Part shown: piece after piece, positions 14,346 through 32,924 of the stretch
Layout of the letters: each line of letters begins with the position of its first letter
Position numbering within the stretch: the first letter of the stretch is position 1
Assembly (NCBI GenBank): GCA_025774935.1
Contig: JALGZK010000008.1
Span: forward strand, 40,402 to 104,401
Length of the DNA: 64,000 nucleotides
Source: a bacterium
GTDB lineage: Bacteria > Joyebacterota > Joyebacteria > Joyebacterales > Joyebacteraceae
Direction of reading: 5' to 3'
Position numbers and translations under genes: made by a program
Notes under the pieces: model-generated
What the model was told of the DNA's origin: nothing
Databases searched by the model: none
Seen by the model: the letters and a program-made list of their open reading frames with translations, nothing else

Positions 14346-14374
14346 TTGACTTGCCGCACACGCGCGCCTATCCT
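14346..14374 (+). promoter_or_regulatory. Candidate sigma-70 promoter for the hdr operon
   Basis: TTGACT (14346-14351), 17 bp, TATCCT (14369-14374). It is the best promoter match upstream of the 13-gene operon. Confidence 0.45.
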
Positions 14375-14754: not shown

Positions 14755-15687
14755 ATGGAGACCGACAGCCCTCATCCCGATCCGTATGTCCCCGAGAGGA
14801 ACGAACCGCTCGTCGCGGGCGTGAGCAACAAGATCGGCTCCGTCCTCGTCGTCGGCTCCGGCATCTCCGGCATGCAGGCGGCGCTGGATCTCGCCGATGG
14901 CGGCTACTACGTCTACCTTCTCGACAGCGAGCCCGCGATCGGCGGCCTCATGTCGAAGCTCGACAAGACCTTCCCCACCAACGACTGCGCGATGTGCGTC
15001 ATGAGCCCCAAGCTCGTGGACTGCGGTCGCCACCTCAACATCGAGCTCGTCACCTACGCTGATGTGAAGAACATCGACGGCGTTCCCGGCAACTACAACG
15101 TCGAGATCGTCCGGAAGGCGAAGTCGGTCGACGAGGAGAAGTGCACCGGGTGCGGTGACTGCGTGACGGGCTGCCCGTCGCGGTACGTGGTCCGTCCCCC
15201 CGCCGAGGGCGCCCTCTACGAGCCGGAGACCACGGCGGACGAGAGAGATTTCATCGACCGGCTCCTCCGTGAGGAGGAGGACGTCGAGGGCAACCTCCTC
15301 TCGGTCCTCCAGGACGTGAGCGAGTACTCCCGCTACCTTCCCGAGCACGTCCTCAAGTACCTCTCGGACAAGACCGGGATCCCCCTGGCGAGGATGATCT
15401 CGGTCGCGACGTTCTACGACGCGTTCTCGCTGGAGCCCAGGGGCGAGCACACGATCTCGGTCTGCATGGGAACCGCATGTCACGTGAAGGGCTCGGGCCT
15501 CCTCCAGTCGAGGCTCGAGGACATCCTCCAGATCCAGAGCGGCGAGACCACGGCCGATGGCAAGTTCACACTCCAGACCGTGAGGTGCATCGGCTGCTGC
15601 GCTCTCGCGCCGGCCGTCCGCATCGACGAAGAGACCTTCGGGTTCGTGATGGTGCGCGGGCTCGAGAAGATACTCAACAGGTTCTAG
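14755..15687 (+). CDS. Fusion of the N-terminal half of HdrA with a NuoE-like [2Fe-2S] domain
   Basis: 310 residues. Residues ~28-150 match the FAD-binding half of HdrA: VLVVGSGISGMQAALDL, the Cys segment NDCAMCVMSPKLVDC, and the first ferredoxin Cys set CTGCGDCVTGCP. There HdrA stops. From ~160 to the end it is a NuoE/HndA thioredoxin-like domain with CMGTAC and RCIGCC, the four ligands of a [2Fe-2S] cluster. The missing HdrA half continues in the gene at 17617, in register with the break. The HdrA N-terminal domain is absent. It is the first gene of the operon, 3 bp before the NuoF-like gene. It likely passes electrons between a flavin in the rebuilt HdrA and the NADH-binding subunit (inference). 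Confidence 0.85.
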   Translation: METDSPHPDPYVPERNEPLVAGVSNKIGSVLVVGSGISGMQAALDLADGGYYVYLLDSEPAIGGLMSKLDKTFPTNDCAMCVMSPKLVDCGRHLNIELVTYADVKNIDGVPGNYNVEIVRKAKSVDEEKCTGCGDCVTGCPSRYVVRPPAEGALYEPETTADERDFIDRLLREEEDVEGNLLSVLQDVSEYSRYLPEHVLKYLSDKTGIPLARMISVATFYDAFSLEPRGEHTISVCMGTACHVKGSGLLQSRLEDILQIQSGETTADGKFTLQTVRCIGCCALAPAVRIDEETFGFVMVRGLEKILNRF

Positions 15688-15690
15688 CGC

Positions 15691-17598
15691 ATGGCACGCA
15701 TCAACACACAGGCGGAGTTCGAGCGCGTCGCGAGGGAGGCCGCGGAGCGGTACTGGGGCCGAGGGCTCACGATCCGGATCGGCATGGCCTCGTGCGGGCT
15801 CGCGGCGGGGGCGGGCGCCCTCTACGACGTTGCCGCCGAGCGCGTGAAGGCGAACGGGAACGGTCTCGCCCTGACGAGGCTGGGATGCCGGGGAAGCTGC
15901 GTCACCGAGCCGATGGTCGACGTGGTCTCCCCGGACTTCCACCTGACCTTCGGGAACGTCACGAAGGCTGGGCTCGAGGCCATCATGGACGCCGCGGTGG
16001 CCGACGACTTCAGTTCGTTCGAGGACGCGGACGCCGTCTGGCAGGAGCGCGAGGAGCTCCGAACCGACGGGACGGTCTACCGCACCCGGCGAGGCACGCC
16101 GTCGCGAATCCCGGACATATCGGAAGTCCCTTTCTACACGCCTCAGCGGAAGATCATCACTCGGAACTGCGGCCTCATCGACCCCTTCAGCATCGAAGAG
16201 GCCCTGGCGAGGGACGGCTACGCCGCGCTCGTCAAGGTGCTCACGGAGAACGACCCGGCGGGTGTCATCAAGACCGTGACCGACTCGGGCCTCAGGGGAC
16301 GAGGCGGCGCCGGGTTCCCGACGGGCCGGAAGTGGGCGTTCGCGAGAGAGGCGGCCGGGGACGAGAAATACGTCTTCGTGAACGCGGACGAGGGCGACCC
16401 CGGTGCGTTCATGGACCGGTCGGTCCTCGAGAGCGATCCCCACGCCGTCCTCGAGGGCCTGGCCATCGGCGCGTTCGCCGTCGGGGCCTCCAAGGGCATC
16501 ATCTACGTCAGGGCCGAGTACCCGCTCGCGGTGCAGACCCTGAGGAACGCGATCGTCCAGGCCCGCGAGTACGGGTTCCTGGGAGAGAACATCCTCGGCT
16601 CGGACTTCAGCTTCGACGTCTCGCTCCGCATCGGAGCGGGCGCGTTCGTCTGCGGCGAGGAGACCGCGCTCATCGCCTCCGCCGAGGGCAGGGTCGGAGA
16701 GCCGAGGCCGCGTCCCCCCTACCCCGCGCAGTGCGGGTACAAGGGAGCGCCGACGGTCATCAACAACGTGAAGACCTGGTCGGCCGTCGCTCCGATCATC
16801 CTGAACGGGGCGGAGTGGTTCGCCGAGGTCGGCTCGGAGAACAGCAAGGGCACGGCTGTCTTCTGCGTCACGGGCACGATCAAGAACACGGGGCTGGTCG
16901 AGGTCCCGATGGGCATGAGCCTGAACGACATCATCCACGACATCGGAGGAGGACCCGAGCGCGAGGGGGCCGAGCTCAAGGCCGTGCAGACCGGCGGGCC
17001 GTCCGGCGGCTGCCTGCCGAAGGAACAGTTCGACCTCAGGGTCGACTACGAGCAGCTCACCGAGGCCGGGTCGATGATGGGCTCGGGCGGGATGATCGTC
17101 GTCGACGACAGAACGTGCATGGTCAACCTCGCGAAGTTCTTCCTGAACTTCACGATGGACGAGTCGTGCGGGAAGTGCACGCCGTGTCGGGAGGGAACGC
17201 GGAGGATGTACGACCTCCTTGAGAAGATCACGTCGGGGAAAGGCACGGAGGAGGACGTCAGGCTCCTCGAGGAGCTCGCGGTCTACGTGAAGGACACGTC
17301 GCTCTGCGGTCTCGGGGCGACGGCGCCCAACCCCGTGCTCTCGACGCTGAGGTACTTCCAAGACGAGTACGACGCGCACATCAAGGAGCACCGGTGCCCC
17401 GCCGGGGAGTGCGAGGCCCTGATCAGCTTCCACGTGGTCCCCGACAAGTGCACGGTCTGCGGGGCGTGCGCGAAGGTCTGTCCGGTGAACGCGGTCCTCG
17501 AGGCCGGCGAGGCTCCCCCGACGATCGAGCAGGACGCGTGCACCAGGTGCCGCACGTGCTTCGAGGTGTGTCCTTCGGACGCCATCCGAATCGACTAG
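15691..17598 (+). CDS. NuoF-like NADH-binding flavoprotein with extra N- and C-terminal iron-sulfur domains
   Basis: 635 residues, like the HydB/HndC form of NuoF. Residues ~20-100 are a thioredoxin-like [2Fe-2S] domain (ASCGLAAGA, GCRGSC). The core binds FMN and NADH: GRGGAGFPTGRKW, NADEGDPGAFMDRSVLE, with the [4Fe-4S] motif SCGKCTPCREG at about 490. The C-terminus has two [4Fe-4S] ferredoxin motifs, CTVCGACAKVCP and CTRCRTCFEVCP. Such subunits take hydride from NADH (or donate it to NAD+) in bifurcating hydrogenases and dehydrogenases. No hydrogenase large or H-cluster subunit is present in this window, so here it probably serves the Hdr modules. Confidence 0.93.
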   Translation: MARINTQAEFERVAREAAERYWGRGLTIRIGMASCGLAAGAGALYDVAAERVKANGNGLALTRLGCRGSCVTEPMVDVVSPDFHLTFGNVTKAGLEAIMDAAVADDFSSFEDADAVWQEREELRTDGTVYRTRRGTPSRIPDISEVPFYTPQRKIITRNCGLIDPFSIEEALARDGYAALVKVLTENDPAGVIKTVTDSGLRGRGGAGFPTGRKWAFAREAAGDEKYVFVNADEGDPGAFMDRSVLESDPHAVLEGLAIGAFAVGASKGIIYVRAEYPLAVQTLRNAIVQAREYGFLGENILGSDFSFDVSLRIGAGAFVCGEETALIASAEGRVGEPRPRPPYPAQCGYKGAPTVINNVKTWSAVAPIILNGAEWFAEVGSENSKGTAVFCVTGTIKNTGLVEVPMGMSLNDIIHDIGGGPEREGAELKAVQTGGPSGGCLPKEQFDLRVDYEQLTEAGSMMGSGGMIVVDDRTCMVNLAKFFLNFTMDESCGKCTPCREGTRRMYDLLEKITSGKGTEEDVRLLEELAVYVKDTSLCGLGATAPNPVLSTLRYFQDEYDAHIKEHRCPAGECEALISFHVVPDKCTVCGACAKVCPVNAVLEAGEAPPTIEQDACTRCRTCFEVCPSDAIRID

Positions 17599-17616
17599 CA
17601 GGAGCGACCGAGCGAC

Positions 17617-20600
17617 GTGAAGGAACACGAAGAAACCAGATGCTCAGAGCATGACGTGTGCGTGAACGCGGTGCGGATCACGCTCGACGGCGTGCCCATG
17701 GAGGTGGAGCTCGGGACGACGATCCTCGCGGCGGCCACGTCGGCCGGCGTGACGATCCCCACGCTCTGCCACTACGGCGGGCTCGAGCCGGCGGGCGCCT
17801 GCCGCATCTGCGTCGTGGAGCTCAAGACCGAGCGGGGCAGCAGGCTCGTGCCGGCGTGCCACTACGCCATCGAGGCCCCCGCCGACATCTCCACGAGCTC
17901 TGAGCGCGTCGTCTCGTCGAGGAAGATGACGATCGAGCTCCTCCTCGCCCGCTGCCCGGAAGTGCCGGCACTCCAGGAGCTCGCCGCGGAGTACGGCGTC
18001 GAGACCACGCGCCTCCCGTCGGACGACGACGACTGCATTCTCTGCGGGCTCTGCGTGCGGACCTGCCGCGACCTCATGGACACCGAGGCGCTCTCGATGG
18101 TCGGGCGCGGGCACGGCCGCCGGGTCGCCCCGCCGTACGACAAGAAGTCGCTCGTCTGCATGAGCTGCGGCGCCTGCGCGTTCGTCTGTCCGACGAACAA
18201 GATCAAGATCGCCGATCTGTACGCCGGCAGGACCAGCGAGAACCTCTCGACCTACGACGAGAGGCTCGTTCCCGTCGGGAACATCCGCCTGAACTACTCG
18301 CAGCAGATCCCGAAGGTCCCGGTGATCGACCGCGAGAACTGCGTCCACTTCGTGACAGGCGCGTGCGGCGCGTGCGAGAAGATCTGCAACGTCGGCGCGA
18401 TCGACTACGACCAGGAGGACCGCGAGGAGACCCTGAACGTCGGCGCGGTAATCGTGACGCCGGGGTACGACTCGTACGACGCGTCCCAGAAGGGCGCGCT
18501 CGGCTACGGGCGCTACGAGAACGTCCTCACGAACCTCCAGTTCGAGCGGATCCTGAGCGCATCGGGTCCGTGCGAGGGCGAGATCCGGCGCCCCTCGGAC
18601 GGCGCGCATCCGAGGAAGGTCGCGTTCCTCCAGTGCGTCGGCTCGCGCGACACGAACGAGGAAGGGAAGCCGTACTGCTCGTCGATCTGCTGCATGGCCT
18701 CCATCAAGGAGGCGGTCATCGCGCGCGAGCACGACTCGAACGTCGAGCCCACCATCTTCTACATAGACATGCGAACGCAGGGCAAGGAGTTCGAGCGGTA
18801 CTTCGAGGGCGCCAGGAACGACCACGGCATCGTCTTCAAGAGGAGCAGCGTAGCGAAGCTCTACGAGAAGCCGGCCACGAAGAACCTCGTGGTCCGGCAC
18901 GTGGACGAGGAGACCGGCGAGATCGCTGAGGAGGAGTTCGACCTCGTCGTCCTCGCCGCTGGCCTCGTCGCGCACGAGAGCAACGCCGGTCTCGCCGAGA
19001 GCCTCAACATCACGCTCAACGAGCACGGGTTCTGCGAGGGACACACGTACCAGGTGCCGGGAAGCGGTGGTGGGAACGGCGGTGGGAACGGCGACGGGAC
19101 GGCCGGGCAGGGCGCCGGGGCGACCGCCGGGTCGGCCGCCGGCATCTTCACGGGCGGCGCCTTCACCGAGCCCCGATACATCCCGGAGGCCGTCGTCGAG
19201 GGGAGCTGCGCCGCCTCGGGCGCCGCGAGGCTACTCGCGGAGGCGCGCGGGACGCTCGCCAGGAAGAAGAAGTACCCGAAGCAGCTCGACGTCGCGAAGG
19301 CCGTGCCGCGCATCGGCGTGTTCATCTGCCGCTGCGGGATCAACATCGCGGGAACGGTCAACGTCCCGGACGTGGTCGCCTACTCCGCGACCCTCGGGAA
19401 CGTCGTCCACGCGTCCGAGTTCGTCTACTCGTGCTCGCAGGACTCGCTCGAGGTCATCAAGGAGACCGTCGCCGAGCACAAGCTGAACCGCGTGGTGGTC
19501 GCGTCGTGCACGCCGAGGACTCACGAGTACCTCTTCGCCGACACCATCCGCGAAGCGGGTCTCAACCGCTACTACTTCGAGCTCGCTTCGATCCGGGAAC
19601 ACTGCTCCTGGGTCCACATGCAGGAGCCCGAGCTGGCGACGCAGAAGGCGAAGGAACTCGTGGAGATGATGGTGAGCAAGGTCCGGGGCGCGCGCCCCGT
19701 GAGCCTCGAATACTCGCCGGTCGTCCACCGCGGGCTCGTCATCGGGGGCGGCGTGAGCGGGATGAACGCCGCGCTGAGCCTCGCCGAGCAGGGCTACGAG
19801 GTCGACCTCGTCGAGAAGGAAGGGAAGCTCGGAGGTAACTACCTCAAGCACCGACGCCCGGTCTGGAACCTCTACTCCCCGACATACCTCGAGGACCTCG
19901 AGGCCGCCGTGCGGGCCAACTCGAACGTCACGCTCCACCTGAACTCGGAGGTGATCCTCTTCTCCGGGGTCGTCGGGAACTTCTACGCCGAGGTCTGCAA
20001 CCGCGAGACGGGAGAGGAGCACGAGATTAGCTGCGGCGCGGCCGTCGTCGCGACCGGCGCCGTCGAACGCGAGCCCGTGGAGTACGGATACGGCACCGAC
20101 GAGCGGATCATGACGCAGCTCGAGTTCGAGAGCCTGCTGGGCGGCGAGGACGAGCCCGCGCCGGACATCAAGAGCGTCGCCATGATCCAGTGCGTCGGCT
20201 CCCGCGAGGAACCGAACCTCTACTGCAGCAGGATCTGCTGCACGCAGGCCATCCAGAACGCGATGGAGCTCAAGCGGAGGAACCCCGACGCCACCGTCCA
20301 CATCATCTACCGCGACATCAGGACGTACGGGGTCCGCGAGGAGCTCTACCGCGAAGCCAGGGAGGCAGGCGTCCTCTTTCTGCGGTACGACGTCGACCGG
20401 AAGCCGGAGGTGACGACAGGCCCGGACGGTCTCAAGCTCAAGGTCTACGACCGGATATCCCGGCGCGAGGTCGAGCTCGGCCCGGACGCGGTCGTCCTCT
20501 CCACCGGCCTCGCCCCGAGACCCGACAGCGAGGAGCTCAGCAAGGTCCTCCGCGTACCGCTCACGCGGGACGGGTTCTTCCTCGAGGCGCACGCGAAGAT

Positions 20601-21006
20601 CCGCCCCGTCGACTTCACGTCCGAGGGGCTCTTCCTCGCGGGTCTCGCCCACTCGCCTCGCTTCACGAACGAGTGTGTGACGCAGAGCCTCGGCGCCTCG
20701 GCGCGGGCCGCGACGATCCTCTCGAAGGACAAGGTCGAGTCGAAGGCCGAGATCGTCGAGGTCAACCTCGCCCGCTGCTCAGGCTGTGCGCTCTGCGTCG
20801 GGATGTGCCCGTACGAGGCGAGGCAGCTCGACCCCGAGAGCGGGAAGGCCACCGTGAACGACATCCTGTGCCAGGGCTGCGGCGCCTGCGCGGGCATCTG
20901 CCCGAACAAGGCGACCGTCCAGCACCTGTACAGACAGACACAGATCATGCACATGCTTGAACCCGTCGGCGCGCAGGCGGGAACGGAGGCGGAGGCGTCG
21001 GAGTAA
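17617..21006 (+). CDS. NuoG-N-like / HdrA C-half / complete HdrA triple fusion
   Basis: 1129 residues from a GTG, with AGGAG 13 nt upstream; a later GTG is possible. Residues ~20-90 are a NuoG-type [2Fe-2S] domain (CHYGGLEPAGACRICVVE). The His-Cys3 site expected next is lost (ARCPEVPALQELA). Two [4Fe-4S] motifs follow (CILCGLCVRTC, CMSCGACAFVCP). Residues ~210-475 are the C-terminal half of an HdrA, starting where the gene at 14755 breaks off (VPVIDRENC, CGACEKIC). A Gly-rich linker (~475-520) leads to a complete HdrA (~560-1120): N-terminal domain FICRCGINIAG, FAD motif GGGVSGMNAALSL, C-terminal CSGCALCVGMCP and CQGCGACAGICP. This HdrA lacks the ferredoxin insert. Probably the scaffold of the complex. 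Confidence 0.88.
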   Translation: MKEHEETRCSEHDVCVNAVRITLDGVPMEVELGTTILAAATSAGVTIPTLCHYGGLEPAGACRICVVELKTERGSRLVPACHYAIEAPADISTSSERVVSSRKMTIELLLARCPEVPALQELAAEYGVETTRLPSDDDDCILCGLCVRTCRDLMDTEALSMVGRGHGRRVAPPYDKKSLVCMSCGACAFVCPTNKIKIADLYAGRTSENLSTYDERLVPVGNIRLNYSQQIPKVPVIDRENCVHFVTGACGACEKICNVGAIDYDQEDREETLNVGAVIVTPGYDSYDASQKGALGYGRYENVLTNLQFERILSASGPCEGEIRRPSDGAHPRKVAFLQCVGSRDTNEEGKPYCSSICCMASIKEAVIAREHDSNVEPTIFYIDMRTQGKEFERYFEGARNDHGIVFKRSSVAKLYEKPATKNLVVRHVDEETGEIAEEEFDLVVLAAGLVAHESNAGLAESLNITLNEHGFCEGHTYQVPGSGGGNGGGNGDGTAGQGAGATAGSAAGIFTGGAFTEPRYIPEAVVEGSCAASGAARLLAEARGTLARKKKYPKQLDVAKAVPRIGVFICRCGINIAGTVNVPDVVAYSATLGNVVHASEFVYSCSQDSLEVIKETVAEHKLNRVVVASCTPRTHEYLFADTIREAGLNRYYFELASIREHCSWVHMQEPELATQKAKELVEMMVSKVRGARPVSLEYSPVVHRGLVIGGGVSGMNAALSLAEQGYEVDLVEKEGKLGGNYLKHRRPVWNLYSPTYLEDLEAAVRANSNVTLHLNSEVILFSGVVGNFYAEVCNRETGEEHEISCGAAVVATGAVEREPVEYGYGTDERIMTQLEFESLLGGEDEPAPDIKSVAMIQCVGSREEPNLYCSRICCTQAIQNAMELKRRNPDATVHIIYRDIRTYGVREELYREAREAGVLFLRYDVDRKPEVTTGPDGLKLKVYDRISRREVELGPDAVVLSTGLAPRPDSEELSKVLRVPLTRDGFFLEAHAKIRPVDFTSEGLFLAGLAHSPRFTNECVTQSLGASARAATILSKDKVESKAEIVEVNLARCSGCALCVGMCPYEARQLDPESGKATVNDILCQGCGACAGICPNKATVQHLYRQTQIMHMLEPVGAQAGTEAEASE

Positions 21007-21040
21007 CGCGGCGCCACTCCCCTCCCCGAAAGGAGCAGAG

Positions 21041-21526
21041 GTGGAAGCGACGGTAGAAGGGAAGACACCGACGGAAGACGGCACCCCGACCACGAGCCAG
21101 GGCGCAGGGCCCTTCGAGCCCAAGATCATTGCGTTCGTGTGCAACTGGTGCACGTACGCCGCCGCGGACCTGGCGGGGACCTCGAGGATCCAGTACCCGC
21201 CGAACGTGAAGATCGTGCGGCTCATGTGCAGCGGCGCGATCGATCCGATCTACGTGCTCCGCGCGATCACGGGCGGGTTCGACGGGGTCCTGATCGGCGG
21301 ATGCCATCCCGGCGACTGCCACTACCAGACTGGGAACTACAAGGCGCGCAGGCGCGTCACGATCCTGAAGGAGATCCTGAAGTCGGTCGGGTACGACGAA
21401 GAGAGGGTGTGGCTCCGCTGGATCTCCGCGAGCGAGGGAGGCGCGTTCGCCGCCACGGTGAGCGAGATGGTCGAGGCACTCAAGTCGCACGGCCCCAACG
21501 TTCTCACGACCAACTGGAACAAGTAG
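21041..21526 (+). CDS. mvhD: MvhD-family [2Fe-2S] electron-transfer subunit
   Basis: 161 residues from a GTG at 21041, chosen because AGGAG lies just upstream (21031-21035) and the preceding frame belongs to the end of the previous gene. It has the MvhD pattern: FVCNWCTYAAADLAG, RLMCSGAIDP and GCHPGDCHYQTGN, whose Cys residues bind a [2Fe-2S] cluster. In methanogens and in the bacterial Flx complex MvhD/FlxD docks on HdrA and carries electrons from hydrogenase, formate dehydrogenase or NADH module to the bifurcating flavin. It is the direct link between the Nuo- and Hdr-like subunits here. The first ~25 residues are a Thr/Glu-rich extension. Confidence 0.92.
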   Translation: MEATVEGKTPTEDGTPTTSQGAGPFEPKIIAFVCNWCTYAAADLAGTSRIQYPPNVKIVRLMCSGAIDPIYVLRAITGGFDGVLIGGCHPGDCHYQTGNYKARRRVTILKEILKSVGYDEERVWLRWISASEGGAFAATVSEMVEALKSHGPNVLTTNWNK

Positions 21527-21532
21527 AGACCA

Positions 21533-22654
21533 ATGAAGAAGAGACTGAAGCTGGATTCGAACGGGCACGGGATGGAGGAGGCGCTGGGGCGCCTCGCGAG
21601 GCTCATGATCTCGACGGGAGGGGTGGACCGGGTCTTCATCCCGCAGCACGACGAGACGGGCGAGGCGGTCTACGCGACGCTCGTCGCCGACGTGGACGCC
21701 CTCAAGGACCCCGCGCCGCTCGTGCCGTACATCAACGGCAACAAGGGACGGGAGGCGGGTCTCTCCACGCCGAAGAACGGCGAGAACAAGACCGCCGTCT
21801 TCGTGCGTCCGTGCGAGGCCCGGGCGATCATCGAGCTCTCGAAGCTCATGCAGGCGCATCGGGAGAGCATGCTCCTGATCACGTCCGACTGCCCGGGGAC
21901 CCTCACGCTCGAGGACTACAAGCGCCTCCGCGAGGAGCACCCGGACCACCGCGAGGAGGTCGCGGCGTTCTACGCGCCGTTCCACGGAGGAGAGCGCCTC
22001 GAAGGACACGAGGTCCGCGAGTGCTGCACGTTCTGCGAGTCGCTCGCGCATCCCATGAGCGACATCCGCCTTCTCCTCGTCGGAGCGCCGGAAGGAACGG
22101 TCGTCGTCGAGGCCACGTCGGAGGCCGGCGAGCGGGTGCTCTCGAAGCTCGAGATGGAGGAAGCGGCGGAGGTCGACGAAGCCGTGCGGGAGAAGTTCAC
22201 CGAGGGTCAGAAGTCGCGCCACGCCGAGATGGAGGCACACTGGGACGAGGTGGTCCACTCGGTCGAGGACTTCATGCACCTCGTCCAGCACTGCCGCAGG
22301 TGCTACAACTGCCGGGCCGAGTGCCCGATCTGCTACTGCCGCGAGTGCGTGTTCCAGACGGCCACGTTCGAGGTGACGCCCGACGCGTTCGGGAGGCGAG
22401 CCGACCAGTACGGCGTCGTCAAGATGCCGCCCGACACGCTGGTCTTCCACCTGACGAGGATGAACCACATGGTGACGTCCTGCGTCTCCTGCGGTCAGTG
22501 CACCGAGGCCTGCCCTCAGAAGATCCCCGTGGGGAAGATCTTCTCCGCGGTGGGCAGGAGGGTTCAGGACGTCTTCGACTACAGGGCCGGCGCCGATACG
22601 GCCGACGAACTGCCGCATGCAGTCTTCCGTGAGGACGAGCTCGAGCCGCGCTAG
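21533..22654 (+). CDS. FrhB/FdhB-like iron-sulfur flavoprotein
   Basis: 373 residues, 6 bp after mvhD. The conserved VRPCEARAIIELSKL and the CTFCES region are those of the F420-hydrogenase/formate-dehydrogenase beta-subunit family. The C-terminal third has Cys-rich motifs CRRCYNCRAECPICYCREC and CVSCGQCTEACP for [4Fe-4S] clusters. Family members carry FAD and exchange electrons with F420, NAD(P) or ferredoxin. In bacteria without F420 the partner is usually ferredoxin or NAD(P)H. No F420-synthesis gene is seen here, so I do not assign a substrate. Co-location with mvhD and hdrA suggests it is a second electron entry point of the same complex. Confidence 0.8.
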   Translation: MKKRLKLDSNGHGMEEALGRLARLMISTGGVDRVFIPQHDETGEAVYATLVADVDALKDPAPLVPYINGNKGREAGLSTPKNGENKTAVFVRPCEARAIIELSKLMQAHRESMLLITSDCPGTLTLEDYKRLREEHPDHREEVAAFYAPFHGGERLEGHEVRECCTFCESLAHPMSDIRLLLVGAPEGTVVVEATSEAGERVLSKLEMEEAAEVDEAVREKFTEGQKSRHAEMEAHWDEVVHSVEDFMHLVQHCRRCYNCRAECPICYCRECVFQTATFEVTPDAFGRRADQYGVVKMPPDTLVFHLTRMNHMVTSCVSCGQCTEACPQKIPVGKIFSAVGRRVQDVFDYRAGADTADELPHAVFREDELEPR

Positions 22655-22683
22655 GCGCGCCGGGCTTCTCCTGGAGAATCGCG

Positions 22684-23403
22684 ATGGCAACAGAACTGAA
22701 AGAGAAGGACGTCACAGAGGCCGGCGACGACGGCATGGTCAGCATCTTCGTGATGGGCAAGGAGTACCGGGTGCCCGACGCGCTGACCATCATGAAGGCG
22801 ACCGAGTACGCGGGCTACCGGTTCATCCGCGGCTGCGGGTGCCGGGGCGGCGCGTGCGGGGCGTGCGCGACCGTCTACCGGACGGGCGACGACTACCGGA
22901 TCAAGGTGGGGCTCGCGTGCCAGACGCTGATCGAGCCGGGGATGCACCTCACGCAGATCCCGTTCTATCCGGCGAACAAGGCGATCTACGACCTCGATCT
23001 GGCCGAGCCGACGGTCGAAGAGGTACTCAAGCACTACCCCGAGATCGCCAGGTGCCTCTGCTGCGAGGTCTGCACGCGGGCGTGCCCGCAGGACCTCGAG
23101 GTCATGTACTACATCCAAGCGGCGCTCCGGGGAGACGTGAAGGAAGTGTCCCGGCTCTCGTTCGAGTGCATCATGTGCGGGCTCTGTGTGTCTCGGTGTC
23201 CCGCCGAGCTCATGCACTACAACGTGGCCATCCTCTGCCGGAGGCTCTACGCGAGGTACGGCATGAAGAGGGCCGAGCACGTCGCTGAGCGCGTCCGCGA
23301 GATCGAGGAAGGGAAATACGACTCGGAACTCGACGAGCTGGTCGGGATGGACGAGAAGGACCTCGTGAAGGCCTACGAGGGCCGTGACTTCGAGGAAGCA
23401 TAA
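22684..23403 (+). CDS. Succinate dehydrogenase/fumarate reductase-like iron-sulfur subunit
   Basis: 239 residues. Residues ~20-95 form a plant-type [2Fe-2S] domain with CGCRGGACGACAT and the distal LACQT. Two [4Fe-4S] motifs follow, CLCCEVCTRACP and CIMCGLCVSRCP. This is the SdhB/FrdB layout, but a canonical SdhB has a [3Fe-4S] cluster as its third centre, and here the fourth Cys is kept. Methanogen TfrB has the same N-terminal half fused to an HdrB-like CCG domain. Here that part could be supplied by the separate HdrC and HdrB genes downstream. It sits 12 bp before the flavoprotein gene, with AGGAG of the next gene overlapping its stop. Confidence 0.87.
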   Translation: MATELKEKDVTEAGDDGMVSIFVMGKEYRVPDALTIMKATEYAGYRFIRGCGCRGGACGACATVYRTGDDYRIKVGLACQTLIEPGMHLTQIPFYPANKAIYDLDLAEPTVEEVLKHYPEIARCLCCEVCTRACPQDLEVMYYIQAALRGDVKEVSRLSFECIMCGLCVSRCPAELMHYNVAILCRRLYARYGMKRAEHVAERVREIEEGKYDSELDELVGMDEKDLVKAYEGRDFEEA

Positions 23404-23414
23404 GGAGACGTGAC

Positions 23415-25043
23415 GTGCCGTATTCCAGGGAGATGATGGAGTCGGTCAGGAAGGTCGTGGAGACGCGCCCGGCCAGGATCGCCGAGGCGAAGGAGGGGAA
23501 GCACTTCCCCCGTCTCGGCCAGGACGACATCGAGGCCATCCTGAAGAAGTACCACCCGGACTACAGGGACGGGACGAAGCGGGAGGTCAGGGTCGGGGCC
23601 GGGAAGGGCACGATCGTCCCGAACGAGCTCGCGGATCTCCTCGAGGCGCGACCGATGATCCGGCCCGAGGACGTGGAGCTCGGCACCGTCGACGTCGACA
23701 CCGACGTCCTCGTGATCGGAGGCGGTGGGGCGGGCGCCGCGGCGGCTCTCACGGCGGCCGCGGAGGGGGTGAACGTCACGGTCGCCACGAAGCTCAGGCT
23801 CGGGGACGCGAACACGATGATGGCCGAGGGAGGCATCCAGGCGGCCGACAAGGCGAGCGACTCGCCGGTGCTGCACTTCCTCGACATCCTCGGCGGAGGG
23901 CACTTCACGAACGACCGCGAGCTGGTACGCACGCTCGTCAGCGACGCGCCGTCGATCATCGGGTGGCTCGAGGATCTCGGCGTCCTCTTCGACAAGGAGG
24001 AAGAGGACGGCACGATGCAGACGCTGCACGGCGGCGGGACGTCGCGCAAGCGCATGCACTCGGCGGGCGACATGACCGGAGCCGAGATCATGCGGACGCT
24101 CCGGGACGAGGTCAAGAACCACCCGGACGAGATCCGCGTGCTCGAGTTCTCCCCGGCGGTCGAGCTCATCCTGGGCGACGCAGGCGGAGTGGCGGGAGCG
24201 GTGCTCTACAACATGGAGACCGAGCAGTACATCGTCGTGCGCGCGAAGACCACCATCATCGCGACAGGCGGGTTCGGCAGGCTCCACATCCAGGGATTCC
24301 CCACGACGAACCACTACGGCGCCACGGCCGACGGCATCGTCCTCGCCTACCGCGCGGGAGCGGCGCTCAAGTTCCTGGAGGCGACGCAGTTCCATCCCAC
24401 GGGAGCGGTCTTCCCGGAACAGAACGTCGGCCTCCTCATCACGGAGAAGGTGCGGGGCGCCGGCGCGCAGGTCGTCAACGTCGAGGGTGAGCAGTTCGTC
24501 TATCCGCTCGAGACGCGCGACGTGGAGTCGGCGGCGATCATCCGCGAGTGCGAGGAACGCGGGAAGGGCGTCGTGACGCCCACGGGGCGCAAGGGGTGCT
24601 GGCTCGACTCTCCGATGGTCGAGGTCCTGCGAGGCGCGGGGACCATGCAGAACGATTTCCCCGCCAAGTACAGGCAGTTCATGCGGCACGACATCGACAT
24701 CAGCAAGCTCCCGATGCTCATCTACCCGACGCTCCACTACCAGAACGGCGGCGTCGCGATCAACGCGGAAGCCGAGGCCGAGAGGGAGAACCTCTACCTC
24801 GCCGGAGAGGTCACCGGGGGCATCCACGGCACCAACCGGCTGATGGGGAACTCGCTCCTGGACATCCTGGTCTACGGACGCCGCGCCGGACTGAACGCGG
24901 CAAGGAAGAGCAAGGAGACGCAGCCGGGCAGGCTGACGCTCGAGCATCTGAGCGAGTACGCAGCCGAGCTCGAGAAGGCGGGGATCGGGAGCGAGGCAGT
25001 CTCTCCCATGCTCCTCCCCGACTACGCCGGCAAGCTCGGATAG
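23415..25043 (+). CDS. Fumarate reductase/succinate dehydrogenase-like flavoprotein subunit (TfrA-like)
   Basis: 542 residues from a GTG with AGGAG at 23403-23407. The first ~90 residues are an extra N-terminal region; the FAD motif VLVIGGGGAGAAAAL follows. Active-site elements of fumarate reductase are kept: QFHPTGAVF, the proton-donating Arg in TEKVRGAG, and HYQNGGVAI. In SdhA/FrdA a His in a SHT segment binds FAD covalently. Here the segment reads DANTMMAEGG, so FAD is probably non-covalent. No SdhC/SdhD membrane anchor exists nearby, which fits a cytoplasmic thiol-linked enzyme like TfrAB. L-aspartate oxidase and other relatives are less likely because of the iron-sulfur partner. Confidence 0.85.
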   Translation: MPYSREMMESVRKVVETRPARIAEAKEGKHFPRLGQDDIEAILKKYHPDYRDGTKREVRVGAGKGTIVPNELADLLEARPMIRPEDVELGTVDVDTDVLVIGGGGAGAAAALTAAAEGVNVTVATKLRLGDANTMMAEGGIQAADKASDSPVLHFLDILGGGHFTNDRELVRTLVSDAPSIIGWLEDLGVLFDKEEEDGTMQTLHGGGTSRKRMHSAGDMTGAEIMRTLRDEVKNHPDEIRVLEFSPAVELILGDAGGVAGAVLYNMETEQYIVVRAKTTIIATGGFGRLHIQGFPTTNHYGATADGIVLAYRAGAALKFLEATQFHPTGAVFPEQNVGLLITEKVRGAGAQVVNVEGEQFVYPLETRDVESAAIIRECEERGKGVVTPTGRKGCWLDSPMVEVLRGAGTMQNDFPAKYRQFMRHDIDISKLPMLIYPTLHYQNGGVAINAEAEAERENLYLAGEVTGGIHGTNRLMGNSLLDILVYGRRAGLNAARKSKETQPGRLTLEHLSEYAAELEKAGIGSEAVSPMLLPDYAGKLG

Positions 25044-25079
25044 CCGAAGGCCATCCGGCGAGCGGCCGAGAGGAATGCG

Positions 25080-25493
25080 ATGAAACTGGTTCTTGAACGC
25101 GGGGACTTCACGAGGACCTTCCACGAGAGGCTGAAGGAGCTCTCGGGGCAGGACCTCTTCACCTGCTATCAGTGCGGGAAGTGCTCGGCAGGCTGTCCGA
25201 GCGCCGCCGTGATGGACGCTCCCCCGCACGCCATTGTCCGGCTCGCGTGGTTCGGCCAGGAGGATGACCTCATGAAGCTCAACTCCTACTGGCTCTGCGC
25301 GGCGTGCCTGACGTGCGACCTCCGTTGCCCCAAGGGCATCGACATATCGCGGATCATGGAGGCGCTGCGCGTGATGTTCCTGCGCCCGAGAGAAGAGCCC
25401 GACATGGTGCCGCCCGAGTCCCTTCCGAAAGACATGCTCTCGAGGATCCCGCAGCAGGCGCTCGTGGCGGGAATGAGGAAGTACACGAAATGA
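25080..25493 (+). CDS. hdrC: HdrC-like iron-sulfur subunit (set 1)
   Basis: 137 residues. Two [4Fe-4S] motifs, CYQCGKCSAGCP and CAACLTCDLRCP, with the spacing of HdrC. It transfers electrons between HdrA and HdrB. It is shorter than the second HdrC (200 residues) and has no membrane segment, so it belongs to the soluble HdrABC type. Its stop overlaps the next start (ATGA). Confidence 0.92.
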   Translation: MKLVLERGDFTRTFHERLKELSGQDLFTCYQCGKCSAGCPSAAVMDAPPHAIVRLAWFGQEDDLMKLNSYWLCAACLTCDLRCPKGIDISRIMEALRVMFLRPREEPDMVPPESLPKDMLSRIPQQALVAGMRKYTK

Positions 25494-26503
25494 GGACCTT
25501 CTACTACCCCGGCTGCACACTGCCAGACAAGGCGCGCGACTTCGACACGTCCGCGCGCACGACCTGCGACCTCCTCGGCATCGAGCTCGAGGAGATGGAG
25601 AGGTGGGTCTGCTGCGGCTCCGCGTTCAAGCTCGACCGCACGAACGTGATGCAGCACCTGGCGCCGATCAGGAACCTCGCGGAGGTGCACAAGGAGGGCG
25701 GGAGGCTCATGACCCTGTGCGTCTTCTGCTACAACTCCCTGAAGCGGGCGAACTACGCGTTCAACGCCGCGTCCGACCGACAGGAGATCCTGAACGACTT
25801 CATCGAGTCCGACTACGACGGCAAGGTCCAGGTGGTCCACCTCCTGGAGATGCTCAAGGACGACGTGAGCTTCGAGGCGCTCGCCGAGCAGGTGAAGCGT
25901 CCGCTTACGGGTCTCAAGGTCGCGGTGTTCTACGGCTGCCTCCTCATGCGCCCGTTCAAAGAAGTCGGGTTCGAGGATCCGGAGAACCCCTCCGTCCTCG
26001 AGAGGCTGTTCGAGGCACTCGGCGCCGAGGTCGTCCCGTACCCCCACCACCTCGAGTGCTGCGGGTCGTACCTCTCGCTCAAAGACCCCGAGCACACGAC
26101 AACGTGCGTCACGAAGATCCTCGGGTCGGCCGTCGCCGAAGGCGCCAACGCGATCGTCACGAGCTGCCCGATGTGCAACTTCAACTTCGAGTTCTTCGGC
26201 GGAGACCTCGTCTCGAGAAACCAGATCCACACGTTCTACTTCACGGAACTCCTGGCGCTCGCGCTGGGCGCCGACAAGGAGCTGTGCGGGCTCGAGCAGC
26301 ACGAGACCGACGTCGATGGCTTCCTCCAGGACCTCTTCGCCGGACGCGCGGCAACCGAGCCAGTGGCCCCAGAGCCGGCGACGGAGGAACCGCCCGCCGA
26401 GGAGCCCGAGGCCGCCGCGCCCGAGGCGCCCGAGCGACCGGCGGCGAAAGAAGTGCCGGCTGAGAAGGAAGGAGTCGCCGGGGAGCGCGATCCGAGCGAG
26501 TGA
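25490..26503 (+). CDS. hdrB: HdrB-like CCG-domain subunit (set 1) with acidic Pro/Ala tail
   Basis: 337 residues from the ATG at 25490 that overlaps the hdrC stop. Two CCG domains are complete: YYPGC, WVCCGS, LCVFC and then VFYGC, ECCGSY, CPMC, the ligands of the two non-cubane [4Fe-4S] clusters that cleave disulfides in HdrB. The disulfide is CoM-S-S-CoB in methanogens and unknown in bacteria. Residues ~285-337 are an added Glu/Pro/Ala-rich tail absent from the second HdrB. Confidence 0.92.
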   Translation: MRTFYYPGCTLPDKARDFDTSARTTCDLLGIELEEMERWVCCGSAFKLDRTNVMQHLAPIRNLAEVHKEGGRLMTLCVFCYNSLKRANYAFNAASDRQEILNDFIESDYDGKVQVVHLLEMLKDDVSFEALAEQVKRPLTGLKVAVFYGCLLMRPFKEVGFEDPENPSVLERLFEALGAEVVPYPHHLECCGSYLSLKDPEHTTTCVTKILGSAVAEGANAIVTSCPMCNFNFEFFGGDLVSRNQIHTFYFTELLALALGADKELCGLEQHETDVDGFLQDLFAGRAATEPVAPEPATEEPPAEEPEAAAPEAPERPAAKEVPAEKEGVAGERDPSE

Positions 26504-26527
26504 CGCCGCCCCTGGCGCGCTGAACGG

Positions 26528-28483
26528 ATGACGAGAATCGGAGTGTTCTGTTGCTGGTGCGGGTCGAACATCGGCGGGGTCGTGGATCTCGACCGGGTGA
26601 ACGAAGCTGCTTCGAAGATGCCCGGGGTCGTCCACGCGGAGTGCTACCGCTACTTCTGCTCGCAGCCCGGCCAGAATATGATCGAGGACGCCATCCGGGA
26701 GCACGAGCTCACGGGAGTGGTCATCGCGGCCTGTTCTCCGAGCATGCACGAGGGTACGTTCCGGAAGGCGGCGGAGCGGGCCGGGCTCAATCGGTATCAG
26801 GTGGAGATCGTCAACACGCGCGAGCAGGTCGCGTGGGTGCACCAGGACGAACACGAGGCGGCGACCGAGAAGGCGATCGCGCTCATCGCCGCCATGGTCG
26901 AGAAGACGCGGCAGGACAAGCCCCTCTCCCCCGGCCGCGCTCCGGTCGTAAAGCGGGCACTCGTCATCGGGGCCGGGATCAGCGGCGTCCAGACCGCGCT
27001 CGACATCGCCAACGGGGGCTGCGAGGTGATCCTCGTTGAGAAGGAACCGTCGATCGGCGGACACATGGCGCAGCTGTCGGAGACGTTCCCGACCCTCGAC
27101 TGCTCGCAGTGCATCATGACGCCGAAGATGGTCGACGTCGCGCAGCACGAGCGCATCAACCTCCTCACGTACTCGAACGTGGAGGAGATGTCGGGGAGCG
27201 TCGGGAACTTCCACGTGAAGATCAGGCGATTGGCCGCGTACGTGGACCGCGACAAGTGCACGAGCTGCGGCGTCTGCATCGAGAAGTGCCCAGTCAAGGT
27301 GTCTTCGGAGTTCGAGATGAACCTCGTCGAGAGGAAGGCCATCTACGTGAACTCGCCGCAGGCCGTTCCGAGCACGCCGGTCATCGACGCGGGGAACTGC
27401 CTGTTCCTCACGGAGGGGAAGTGCGGCGTCTGCAAGAAGGTCTGCGAGATCGAGGCTGTCGACTACGAGCAGACGGACGAGGTCCTCGAGTTCGACGTCG
27501 GGGCCGCGGTCGTGGCGACGGGGTTCGACGAGTTCGACCCGAACCTGAAGCCCGAGCTCGGCTACGGGCGCTACGAGAACGTCATCACCGGGCTCGAGAT
27601 GGAGCGGCTGTGCTCGTCGTCTGGTCCGACGGGCGGCGAGATCCTGCTCAACGGGAAGAGCCCGAAGGACGTCGTCTTCCTCCAGTGCGTGGGCTCGCGC
27701 GACGAGTCGGTCGGGAACGAGCACTGCTCGAGGATCTGCTGCATGTCGACCGCGAAGCAGGCGTTCCTGGTCAAGGAGAAGATCCCGGGAGCGACGGCGA
27801 CCGTCTTCTACATGGACATCCGCGCGTTCGGGAAGGGCTACGAGGAGTTCTACGACCGCGTCCGGAAGATGGGCGTCGACTACCGGCGCGGGAGCGCCTC
27901 GGAGATCTACCGGCGGAAAGACAGGCTCGTCGTCCGGGCGGAGGACACGCTCGCGGGCGAGCCGGTCGAGGTCGAGGCGGATCTCGTCGTCCTCGCCGCG
28001 GGGCTCGTTCCGCGACGGGACGCAGACGAGATCGCGCAGACGATGAAGCTGTCGCGCTCGACCGACGGGTTCATCAGGGAGTCGCACCCGAAGCTCCACC
28101 CCGTCGAGACCACGACGGCGGGCATCTTCCTCGCCGGCTGCAGCCAGGGCCCGAAGGACATCCCCGATGCGGTCGCGCAGGCGGGATGCGCGGCGGCCAA
28201 GGTGTTGAGCCTCCTCGCCGCAGGCGAGCTCACCTCCGAGGCAGCGATCGCGGAGGTGAACGAGGAGCGGTGCGCGGCGTGCGGGATGTGCGAGACGGCG
28301 TGCCCGTACGACGCGAGGACGCTCGACGAGGAGAGGAGCGTCGCCGAGGTCGACGAGCTCCTCTGCCAGGGATGCGGCGCGTGCGTGGCGGCGTGCATGA
28401 ACAAGGCGTGCGAGCTCAAGAACCTGACGACGCGGCAGATCGGCTCGATGGTGTCGCAGCTTGGCGAGAGAGGACGGCACTGA
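26528..28483 (+). CDS. hdrA: HdrA flavoprotein, complete (set 1)
   Basis: 651 residues, the normal HdrA length. The N-terminal domain has FCCWCGSNIGG and CSPSMHEGTF. FAD is bound at VIGAGISG (148-153). The inserted ferredoxin has CTSCGVCIEKCP and CGVCKKVC. The C-terminal ferredoxin has CAACGMCETACP and CQGCGACVAACMNKAC. HdrA carries the bifurcating FAD in HdrABC-MvhD complexes. It is closely similar to the next gene (for example GCEVILVEKEPSIGGHMAQL in both), so the two are recent paralogs. It lies 24 bp after the first hdrB. Confidence 0.94.
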   Translation: MTRIGVFCCWCGSNIGGVVDLDRVNEAASKMPGVVHAECYRYFCSQPGQNMIEDAIREHELTGVVIAACSPSMHEGTFRKAAERAGLNRYQVEIVNTREQVAWVHQDEHEAATEKAIALIAAMVEKTRQDKPLSPGRAPVVKRALVIGAGISGVQTALDIANGGCEVILVEKEPSIGGHMAQLSETFPTLDCSQCIMTPKMVDVAQHERINLLTYSNVEEMSGSVGNFHVKIRRLAAYVDRDKCTSCGVCIEKCPVKVSSEFEMNLVERKAIYVNSPQAVPSTPVIDAGNCLFLTEGKCGVCKKVCEIEAVDYEQTDEVLEFDVGAAVVATGFDEFDPNLKPELGYGRYENVITGLEMERLCSSSGPTGGEILLNGKSPKDVVFLQCVGSRDESVGNEHCSRICCMSTAKQAFLVKEKIPGATATVFYMDIRAFGKGYEEFYDRVRKMGVDYRRGSASEIYRRKDRLVVRAEDTLAGEPVEVEADLVVLAAGLVPRRDADEIAQTMKLSRSTDGFIRESHPKLHPVETTTAGIFLAGCSQGPKDIPDAVAQAGCAAAKVLSLLAAGELTSEAAIAEVNEERCAACGMCETACPYDARTLDEERSVAEVDELLCQGCGACVAACMNKACELKNLTTRQIGSMVSQLGERGRH

Positions 28484-28525
28484 CGAGGTGAGGTTCCGAG
28501 AGACGACATCGGACGGGAAGGCTCG

Positions 28526-30472
28526 ATGAATCGCATAGGGGTATTCTGCTGCTGGTGCGGCTCCAACATCGCGGGGGTCCTCGACCTCGACCGGGTCCTC
28601 GAGGAGACCGCTAAGATACCCGGCGTGGCGCACACGGAGTACTACAAGTACTTCTGTTCGCAGCCGGGCCAGGAGATGGTCATCAACGCCATCCGCGAGC
28701 ACGAGCTCGACGGCGTGGTCATGGCCGCCTGCTCCCCCAGCATGCACGAGGGCACCTTCAGGAAGGCCGCCCAGCGCGCCGGGCTGAACGAGTACCAGCT
28801 CGAGATCGTGAACGTCCGCGAGCAGTGCTCGTGGGTCCACCAGCTCGAGAAGGACGCCGCGACGGACAAGGCTATCAAGCTCATTGCCGCGATGGTCGAG
28901 AAGACGAAGCAGAACGAGCCGCTCACGGCCGGGACGGCGCCGGTCGTCCAGCGGGCTCTCGTGATCGGCGCCGGCATCAGCGGGATGCAGGCCGCGCTCG
29001 ACATCGCCAACGGCGGGTGCGAGGTTGTCCTCGTCGAGAAGGAGCCCTCGATCGGCGGACACATGGCGCAGCTCTCCGAGACGTTCCCGACACTCGACTG
29101 CTCGCAGTGCATCATGACGCCTAGGATGGTCGAGGTCGCCCAACACGAGAACATCAGGCTCATGACCTACTCGAACGTCGACGAGGTGACCGGCAACGTC
29201 GGCAACTTCCACGTCAAGGTCCGGACGAAGGCGGCGTTCGTCGACCGCGACACGTGCACGGGCTGCGGGCTCTGCATCGAGAAGTGCCCCGCGAAGACGA
29301 GCTCGGAGTTCAGCCGGGGGCTCGAGAACAGGAAGGCGATCTACGTCAACTCGCCTCAGGCCGTTCCGAACCAGCCCGTGATCGACGCCGAGCACTGCAT
29401 GTACCTCCTGAACGGGAAGTGCGGGGTCTGCAAGAAGGTCTGCGAGATCGGCGCGATCGACTACGAGCAGGAGGACCGCTTCGAGGAGATCGACGTCGGG
29501 GCGATCGTCGTCGCGACGGGGTACGACCTCTACGACCAGAAGGAGTTCCCCGAGTTCGGCGGCGGCGAGATACCGGACGTCATCGACGGGCTCCAGTTCG
29601 AGCGCCTGAACTCCGCCAGCGGTCCGACCCTCGGCGAGATCCGACGCCCCTCGGACGGGAAGATCCCGAAGCAGATCGTCTTCATCCAGTGCTGCGGGTC
29701 GCGGGACCCGGAGAACGGGGTACCGTACTGCTCGCGCATCTGCTGCATGTACACGGGCAAGCAGGCGATGCTCTACAAGCACAAGGTCCACGACGGCCAG
29801 GCCTACGTCTTCTACATGGACATCCGCGCGGGCGGAAAGGGCTACGAGGAGTTCATCCAGCGGGGCATCGAGGAGACGAACACGATCTACTTCCGGGGAC
29901 GCGTGTCGCGTCTCTACCGGCAGAACGGGAAGGTGATGGTCTCCGGTGTCGACACGCTGTCCGGACAGACCATCGAGATACCGGCGGACATGGTGGTCCT
30001 CGCGACGGCCATCGTGCCGAGCGAGGGCGCCGCGCAGGTCGCCGAGACTCTCAACGTCGCCACGAGCGAGAGCGGGTTCTTCGCCGAGGCGCACGTGAAG
30101 CTCCGCCCCGTCGAGACGCAGCGGCGCGGCATCTTCCTGGCGGGCTGCGCGCAGGCGCCGAAAGACATCCCGGACGCGGTGTCGCAGGCGGGATGCGCCG
30201 CCTCGAAGGCGCTTGCCCTCCTCGCGTCGCGGCAGCTCAAGTCCGAGGCGCAGGTCGCGATCGTCGACGAGGAACGGTGCGCCGCGTGCGGCATGTGCGT
30301 CGCGGCGTGCCCCTACGGAGCGAGAACCCTCGACGAGGAGCGGAACGTTGCCGAGGTCGACGAGAGCCTGTGCGAGGGATGCGGAGCGTGCGTGGCGACG
30401 TGTCTCAACAAGGCGTGTGAGCTCAAGAACCTGACGTCTCGACAGATCAGCACGATGGTCGGGGAACTGTAA
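28526..30472 (+). CDS. hdrA: HdrA flavoprotein, complete (set 2)
   Basis: 648 residues. The architecture matches the gene before it: FCCWCGSNIAG, FAD motif VIGAGISG, inserted ferredoxin CTGCGLCIEKCP and CGVCKKVC, C-terminal CAACGMCVAACP and CEGCGACVATC. Between the two paralogs, changes concentrate outside the cofactor motifs, so both are probably functional. The stop overlaps the start of the following hdrC (TAATG), which suggests set 2 is A-C-B and set 1 is C-B-A. Confidence 0.94.
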   Translation: MNRIGVFCCWCGSNIAGVLDLDRVLEETAKIPGVAHTEYYKYFCSQPGQEMVINAIREHELDGVVMAACSPSMHEGTFRKAAQRAGLNEYQLEIVNVREQCSWVHQLEKDAATDKAIKLIAAMVEKTKQNEPLTAGTAPVVQRALVIGAGISGMQAALDIANGGCEVVLVEKEPSIGGHMAQLSETFPTLDCSQCIMTPRMVEVAQHENIRLMTYSNVDEVTGNVGNFHVKVRTKAAFVDRDTCTGCGLCIEKCPAKTSSEFSRGLENRKAIYVNSPQAVPNQPVIDAEHCMYLLNGKCGVCKKVCEIGAIDYEQEDRFEEIDVGAIVVATGYDLYDQKEFPEFGGGEIPDVIDGLQFERLNSASGPTLGEIRRPSDGKIPKQIVFIQCCGSRDPENGVPYCSRICCMYTGKQAMLYKHKVHDGQAYVFYMDIRAGGKGYEEFIQRGIEETNTIYFRGRVSRLYRQNGKVMVSGVDTLSGQTIEIPADMVVLATAIVPSEGAAQVAETLNVATSESGFFAEAHVKLRPVETQRRGIFLAGCAQAPKDIPDAVSQAGCAASKALALLASRQLKSEAQVAIVDEERCAACGMCVAACPYGARTLDEERNVAEVDESLCEGCGACVATCLNKACELKNLTSRQISTMVGEL

Positions 30473-31074
30473 TGGCGACGAAGACGACGGCGACCATCAT
30501 AGACACGACACAGGCCGGAACCGCTGGCGGCGAGCTCTGCTCCGCCGTGATCGAGTCGAGCGGCCAGCCGGTTCTCTCCTGCTACCAGTGCCAGCGGTGC
30601 GGTGGCGGGTGCCCCGTGGCCGTCGCGAGCGGGACCACTCCCAGCGACTTCCTCCGGCTCCTGTCCCTCGGCCTCGCCGACGAGGCGCGGAAGAGCCCAC
30701 TCCTCTGGCTGTGCGCCGGGTGCGGGACCTGCGGCGCGCGATGCCCGAACAAGATCTCGACGAACGAGGTCATCGACGAGCTGAGGGCGGTGACGGCAGG
30801 GCGCGGGAGCGCTGCCGAGGGAACTGGCGACATCCCGGTGTTCCACCGGCTGTTCCTCAAGCAGATCCAGTACCTCGGCCGCCAGCACGAGCTCTTCCTG
30901 ATCGGCGCGCTCAAGATGCGTACGCGGAAGTTCCTCAAGGACATCGATCTCGGCTATCAGATGTTCCGGAAGGGGAAGCTGCCGCTCCTGCCCCACAGGG
31001 CGTCCGGCATCCCGGAGGTGCGGTCGATCTTCAAGGCGAGGGCGAACGCGAGGAAGGGGGCCGGCGAGCGATGA
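30472..31074 (+). CDS. hdrC: HdrC-like iron-sulfur subunit (set 2)
   Basis: 200 residues. Motifs CYQCQRCGGGCP and CAGCGTCGARCP bind two [4Fe-4S] clusters. Compared with set 1 there is a Thr-rich N-terminal extension and a longer basic C-terminal part (KMRTRKFLKDIDLGYQMF, also found in HdrC proteins of sulfate reducers). No membrane helix. Start and stop both overlap neighbours, so translation is coupled to hdrA and hdrB. Confidence 0.92.
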   Translation: MATKTTATIIDTTQAGTAGGELCSAVIESSGQPVLSCYQCQRCGGGCPVAVASGTTPSDFLRLLSLGLADEARKSPLLWLCAGCGTCGARCPNKISTNEVIDELRAVTAGRGSAAEGTGDIPVFHRLFLKQIQYLGRQHELFLIGALKMRTRKFLKDIDLGYQMFRKGKLPLLPHRASGIPEVRSIFKARANARKGAGER

Positions 31075-32746: not shown

Positions 32747-32749
32747 CCT

Positions 32750-32860: not shown

Positions 32861-32881
32861 TCGGTGAATCTAAGAACATCA

Positions 32882-32907: not shown

Positions 32908-32924
32908 CGTGTGTCACGGACCGG

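Follow-up and report, generated by a model that had tools for sequence, protein, structure and literature searches.

HdrA divided between two chains around a NuoEFG-type module, with the break inside its inserted ferredoxin

The locus analysed here combines parts that are known from several described systems. In FlxABCD-HdrABC an NADH-linked module is likewise joined to HdrABC; Flx is not a NuoEFG module and is not known to split HdrA. HdrABC-MvhAGD shares HdrBC and MvhD with the locus, and several relatives of the locus also carry MvhG and MvhA genes beside the split HdrA, but the run of genes in the window (the whole 64,000-nucleotide stretch of DNA that was analysed) contains an embedded NADH module and neither of the hydrogenase subunits MvhG and MvhA. 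The Bam-Bfu class II benzoyl-CoA reductase resembles it in the presence of a type II HdrA, MvhD, NuoE, NuoF, and NuoG, and its Bfu and HdrA parts have been proposed to act in series (PMC9304861). The Bam-Bfu HdrA (BamE) is uninterrupted and its NuoE, NuoF, and NuoG are separate, whereas in the window the HdrA is cut, its pieces are joined to NuoE and NuoG, and none of the 13 genes of the run encodes a benzoyl-CoA reductase. The unsplit Bam-Bfu-like layout was seen at loci L063 (first cluster), L091, and L101.

Insertion of a pyridine-nucleotide module into HdrA has been described as well. In type III HdrA and in the ANME-1 HdrA 9-11, a GltD/NfnB module occupies the same inserted-ferredoxin loop (PMC12054007, PMC9012536), and at L066, which has a GltD-type insertion, HdrA residues 274 and 287 flank the insert. 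Type III HdrA is, however, one chain with a GltD/NfnB domain, in contrast to the three chains (genes A, B, and C), the NuoEFG module, and the HdrA in two pieces of the window, where no GltD domain was found in A, B, or C. Type II and tandem HdrAs (PMC9012536; Moorella MetFV-HdrABC) possess two HdrA units with the same complementarity of Cys197 and N-terminal domain that is seen in A and C, but in the window the Cys197-bearing unit is split around NuoEFG. Within the bifurcating, NuoEFG-like Bfu family (PMC9304861), the window NuoF is nearest to BfuB (7t2r_B), NuoE to BfuC, and the NuoG part to the A subunit of 9mqx, with the difference that the A- and C-type subunits of the window are each fused to half an HdrA. 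No description of an HdrA split around NuoEFG was found in the full-text literature searched (the Appel et al. 2021 review lay outside that search); the parts are known, and the nested architecture and the trans-ligated ferredoxin that it implies appear to be new.

With the split HdrA at its head, a 13-gene run occupies 14755-31934 of the + strand, and a promoter-like site lies ahead of it at 14346-14374 (Table 1). Gene A (14755-15687, 310 aa) encodes HdrA residues 141-257 followed by NuoE, gene B (15691-17598, 635 aa) encodes NuoF, and gene C (17617-21006, 1129 aa) encodes a NuoG-like domain, HdrA residues ~260-565, and a second HdrA. All three reading frames are open and are separated by gaps of only 3 bases (A to NuoF) and 18 bases (NuoF to C). 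The first-pass annotation had described an HdrA in two complementary halves with the NuoF gene (15691-17598) between them, half 1 fused to NuoE and half 2 to a NuoG-like domain. That anatomy was borne out, the fusions by Pfam matches to 2Fe-2S_thioredx and Fer2_4 and the complementarity by the HdrA2 model NF040770 (777 positions), to which half 1 aligns at 139-256 and half 2 at 260-514, the two abutting; overlapping fragments were looked for in alignments to complete HdrA and none were found. Against the solved HdrA 8rvu_a the halves correspond to 141-266 and 272-529, half 2 corresponds to 274-519 of 9sfi_A, and against the intact HdrA of the same window (26528-28483) A ends near residue 257 and C restarts near 260. 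In this intact HdrA, residue 254 is Cys IV of the inserted ferredoxin and residue 291 is Cys V, so the break falls just past Cys IV, in the loop that links the two ferredoxin halves. By alignment, the halves are confirmed as complementary pieces of one HdrA.

Table 1. Features of the 13-gene run, with coordinates in the window.
Feature	Coordinates	Strand	Details
HdrA half 1	14824..15198	+	gene A aa 24-148: FAD-domain start (GSGISG), C81 = Cys197 equivalent, Cys I-IV C130, C133, C136, C140
NuoE / BfuC-like [2Fe-2S] domain fused to half 1	15229..15684	+	Pfam PF01257 (2Fe-2S_thioredx) 1.7e-41
NuoF / BfuB-like (FMN, NADH; B1, B2 with His563, C-terminal B3/B4)	15691..17598	+	best PDB match 7t2r_B 6.4e-210; cluster ligands
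NuoG / BfuA-like domain	17659..18231	+	gene C aa 15-205: one [2Fe-2S], complete 2[4Fe-4S] set; Fer2_4
HdrA half 2	18250..19251	+	gene C aa 212-545: Cys V-VIII C242, C250, C253, C257; FAD-domain remainder, E310 (E356), K364 (K409)
Second HdrA	19306..20955	+	gene C aa 564-1113: N-terminal cluster domain, FAD domain without Cys197 or inserted ferredoxin, C-terminal 2[4Fe-4S]; Q880 in place of K409
MvhD-like (FlpD)	20957..21526	+	PF02662 4.1e-52; start codon uncertain
FrhB_FdhB_C + 4Fe-4S protein, exchangeable module	21533..22654	+	similar proteins downstream in L036, L037, L043, L105
SdhB/TfrB N-terminal-like iron-sulfur protein	22684..23403	+	
SdhA/TfrA-like flavoprotein	23415..25043	+	PF00890 2.9e-72, TfrA model 1e-96
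HdrC-like	25080..25493	+	
HdrB-like (CCG)	25490..26503	+	
Intact HdrA, yardstick	26528..28483	+	Cys I-VIII = 244, 247, 250, 254, 291, 299, 302, 306
Second intact HdrA	28526..30472	+	
HdrC-like	30472..31074	+	
HdrB-like (CCG), last gene of run	31071..31934	+	

The NADH module is of the Bfu type. The NuoE-part model matched 9mqx_C (Z 17.9, rmsd 1.6, 149 residues), and the nearest relative of NuoF is the BfuB of a bifurcating NiFe hydrogenase. The window NuoF has the ligands of B1, of the unusual B2 set with its His, and of B3/B4 (C493/496/499/539; C476, T514, H563, C569, C574; eight C-terminal Cys); by the published Bfu cluster definitions, the C-terminal dicluster is absent from non-bifurcating NuoFs (PMC9304861). 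The ligands of B1 and B2 occur in all 30 aligned NuoF proteins, with B3/B4 absent in L037 and L049. For B5, the N-terminal [2Fe-2S] cluster, the window NuoF has C35, C66, and C70 as in 9n5u_B, the first of these columns being poorly conserved or misaligned elsewhere. HdrAs aside, the best PDB match of the NuoG part is 9mqx_A (1.2e-42), the A subunit of a bifurcating tungsten aldehyde oxidoreductase. The 2[4Fe-4S] set of NuoG is complete by itself, which leaves A and C with exactly one half ferredoxin each, and these two spare halves are the strongest argument that A and C pair. At L037 (5840-9133) and L049 (10858-14064), the split-system NuoF is without its own C-terminal dicluster and is joined in its place to a Fer4_20 and Pyr_redox_2 (GltD/NfnB-like) domain, which constitutes a third flavin site in the complex.

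Gene C also carries a second HdrA that the first-pass annotation had overlooked. The C model aligned to the HdrA 8rvu_A over 539 residues (Z 37.5, rmsd 5.5), exactly in this part. The split HdrA of the window possesses Cys197 and lacks the N-terminal domain, and in the second HdrA the reverse holds. Cys197 and the N-terminal domain are complementary in the same manner in the tandem and fused HdrAs of ANME archaea and Moorella (PMC9012536), a parallel which suggests a pseudo-heterodimer built from the HdrA units of A and C, with the second HdrA of gene C as the probable partner of the split one.

Relatives of gene A that cover both its HdrA and NuoE parts were sought in 84,980 species genomes, and loci were drawn from the best 80 of 362 confirmed stretches. 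Among these, the order hdrA'-nuoE-nuoF-nuoG-'hdrA, broken at the same HdrA position, was found at ~30 loci from ~15 phyla, and half 2 was found downstream at every locus whose contig extends far enough. Relatives of gene A occur in metagenome-assembled genomes (MAGs) of the Eisenbacteria, Cloacimonadota, Marinimicrobia, Myxococcota, Kiritimatiellota, Spirochaetota, Planctomycetota, and Chloroflexota, and in further MAGs of the Acidobacteriota, Zixibacteria, Stahlbacteria, Armatimonadota, KSB1, WOR-3, Thermoplasmata, and one uncultured archaeon. Within phyla the distribution is patchy, with an A-like gene in 5 of 246 genomes of the Planctomycetota (the phylum of L054) and 2 of 247 of the Spirochaetota (L042). 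Judged by sequence, a split at one residue in ~30 loci is far beyond chance, and the arrangement is a conserved, patchily spread one in two forms and not a local oddity.

Domain painting distinguishes these two forms. In the alpha form, that of the window, A consists of HdrA 141-258 and NuoE, and C of NuoG, HdrA 255-565, and a second HdrA. The beta form (A, HdrA 1-258 and NuoE; C, NuoG and HdrA 253-645) amounts to one otherwise complete HdrA with nuoE, nuoF, and nuoG inside, the break being the same as in alpha; a second split copy, of the beta form, is present on another contig of the source genome itself (G000 contig 15, L116). HdrA is not one continuous polypeptide at any of the split loci, as nuoE-nuoF-nuoG interrupts it in all of them. 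Fusion of NuoE and NuoG to the HdrA halves is the usual state, with half 1 a separate gene ahead of a standalone nuoE at L045, L055, L063, and L103. A fully fused HdrA-NuoEFG chain was sought in relatives and none was found among the best 80 of 362 confirmed stretches.

At most loci hdrC-hdrB lies directly upstream and mvhD downstream. The genes after mvhD include NiFe-hydrogenase-type genes, either both subunits (MvhG and MvhA; L039, L055, and L062) or the small subunit (L051, L054, and L060), MetV-MetF (L049), FrhB-like proteins (the window and others), and Tfr/Sdh-like proteins (the window, L051, and L059). This variation defines a core of HdrBC, split HdrA, NuoEFG, and MvhD to which an exchangeable module is added.

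The known features of HdrA (the GxGxxG FAD start, Cys197, the inserted 2[4Fe-4S] ferredoxin, E356, and K409) are all present in the window, distributed over two chains. Without exception, 23 of 23 split pairs retain the eight ferredoxin Cys, Cys197, E356, and K409; because some of the patterns used to find the loci contain Cys197 and Cys I-II, the independent evidence consists of Cys V-VIII, E356, and K409. Of the columns that are near-invariant in intact HdrA, alpha forms keep 22/24 in half 1 and 32/33 in half 2, and beta forms keep 31/34 and 45/52, respectively. At every locus, half 1 and half 2 are nearest to one and the same HdrA type. The first-pass proposal that HdrA is rebuilt from two chains is supported as the reading that fits invariant residues contributed by both, and HdrA would have to be reassembled in this way. 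The placement of the flavin between NuoE and NuoG did not hold, as it is the inserted ferredoxin that sits at the NuoE/NuoG junction, the FAD lying deeper in the domain built by both halves. Single-chain AlphaFold models were weak, with low confidence for the orphan half in C and likewise for NuoG's own ferredoxin, and did not discriminate on ferredoxin closure; fold searches returned matches for the NuoE part alone (A model) or a match list filled by the second HdrA (C model).

In ordinary HdrA the inserted ferredoxin is the proposed ferredoxin-reducing site. In the dicluster ferredoxin fold each half provides three Cys ligands to one cluster and a single Cys to the other cluster, and by this rule both clusters should here be held by two chains. 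The likely arrangement is a Bfu-type nuoEFG module nested in hdrA between Cys IV and Cys V, with A and C rebuilding the ferredoxin and the FAD domain, and a bifurcating HdrA-HdrBC-MvhD complex thereby hard-wired to the NADH module. Chains A and C would meet to re-form both domains, and the rebuilt ferredoxin would become a fixed connector that exchanges electrons, in or out, via NuoG and NuoF. NADH would thus probably be wired straight into HdrA, along a path that starts at the Bfu core (NuoF and NuoE) with NAD(H) and probably also free ferredoxin and leads through the NuoG-like clusters, the rebuilt ferredoxin, and the HdrA FAD to the HdrBC disulfide site, each step running in either direction. 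MvhD and the exchangeable module would feed the other side through the C-terminal HdrA ferredoxin. In the window, Cys197 and the FAD that likely bifurcates would come from the split HdrA; the N-terminal cluster domain and the C-terminal ferredoxin would come from the second HdrA. What the sequences show directly is the anatomy, the complementarity of the halves, their conservation, and the gene neighbourhood; assembly in trans, the electron path, bifurcation or confurcation with its direction, and the third substrate are inferred. For type III HdrA, the insertion of GltD into this loop has been read similarly, as rewiring the ferredoxin from Fd to NAD(P)H (PMC12054007). Counting against the nested, hard-wired arrangement are the missing C-terminal dicluster in the NuoFs of L037 and L049, the result that neither DsrC (a disulfide partner) nor MetF (a module) was found when looked for across the genome, and L046 (9551-12699), where hdrA'-nuoE directly precedes nuoG-'hdrA without nuoF between them and a MeaB gene follows.

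E356 and K409 are the residues tied to the bifurcating FAD of HdrA (PMC12054007), and their retention in the split HdrA of all 23 loci argues against an unlikely alternative in which the HdrA assembled in trans has a FAD that is not bifurcating. The complex would then be a plain NADH:disulfide (or NADH:fumarate) oxidoreductase, with HdrA just relaying electrons and any energy coupling occurring at the Bfu core. Certain bacterial HdrABC complexes are thought to be non-bifurcating (PMC5861303), and the second HdrA of the window lacks the lysine at the K409 position (Gln, with Glu or Arg in near relatives), consistent with this alternative. The lysine is kept in the split HdrA and lost in the second, making the split HdrA the likelier bifurcating unit. 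It is far less probable that the halves stay apart as degenerate linker or docking pieces, half 2 building its cluster with the adjacent NuoG motif. Some HdrA profiles do align the C-terminal Cys motif of NuoG with the first motif of HdrA (C stretch 180-474), but the two NuoG motifs already form a complete dicluster, as in the stand-alone NuoGs of L063, L091, and L101, half 1 alone is just the first part of a FAD domain, and the FAD-site and Cys residues are under the same strict conservation in each half as they are in an intact HdrA. An assembly error, frameshift, or pseudogene can be dismissed despite every source being a MAG, given that ~30 independently assembled loci, 40-88% identical to the copy in the window, share the split, the gene order, and the invariant residues, with reading frames that are open and domains fused at either side.

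Trees of the HdrA core placed the alpha forms among type II HdrAs and the beta forms among type I. A single clade was rejected by the AU test for all split HdrAs (p = 2e-6), the beta form (2e-6), the alpha form (0.007), and the split-system NuoFs (1e-7). The rejection of one split-HdrA clade rules out a one-time local event and indicates that the break recurs or travels as a cassette; this could reflect nesting on several occasions, movement of a cassette, or a single old split followed by recombination or repeated re-fusion. At L063 (367-15189), from a Dehalococcoidia MAG, an unsplit Bam-like cluster (HdrA, MvhD, NuoE, NuoF, and NuoG) adjoins a split cluster, and the NuoFs of the two are close relatives while the HdrA cores are not. 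The chances appear evenly balanced that the inserted ferredoxin of HdrA is a recurrent plug-in site, with NuoEFG nested repeatedly or shuttled as a cassette between HdrA types, and that a dicluster ferredoxin ligated across two chains hard-wires the HdrA FAD and Bfu FMN centres with no free carrier.

If the nested arrangement is correct, a ferredoxin assembled in trans would be the permanent joint of two electron-bifurcating enzymes, with the nested operon marking the site of the joint. It would reveal the part of HdrA that is turned toward the NADH module and provide a concrete answer to the coupling of NADH to HdrA, left open for Moorella MetFV-HdrABC and class II benzoyl-CoA reductase. Split HdrAs are overlooked by single-domain annotation, which takes half 1 for an unusual NuoE and half 2 for a NuoG.

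Several minor variations were observed at these loci. L107 has an in-frame TGA (2218) at the Cys197 position of half 1, probably encoding selenocysteine, and a break at the same position of HdrA is seen in L077, L091, and L101. Genes with CBS/HATPase and PHP domains, possibly regulatory, lie between nuoF and nuoG-'hdrA at L038 (4711-6789) and L054 (14861-16081). In the window, the genes at 22684-26503 constitute a thiol:fumarate-reductase-like set, in which TfrB is seemingly spread over three genes (SdhB-, HdrC-, and HdrB-like) beside the TfrA-like flavoprotein; the same set is present at L117. Two FMN_bind proteins and an ApbE flavin transferase are encoded on the - strand (32012-34800) right after the Hdr run.
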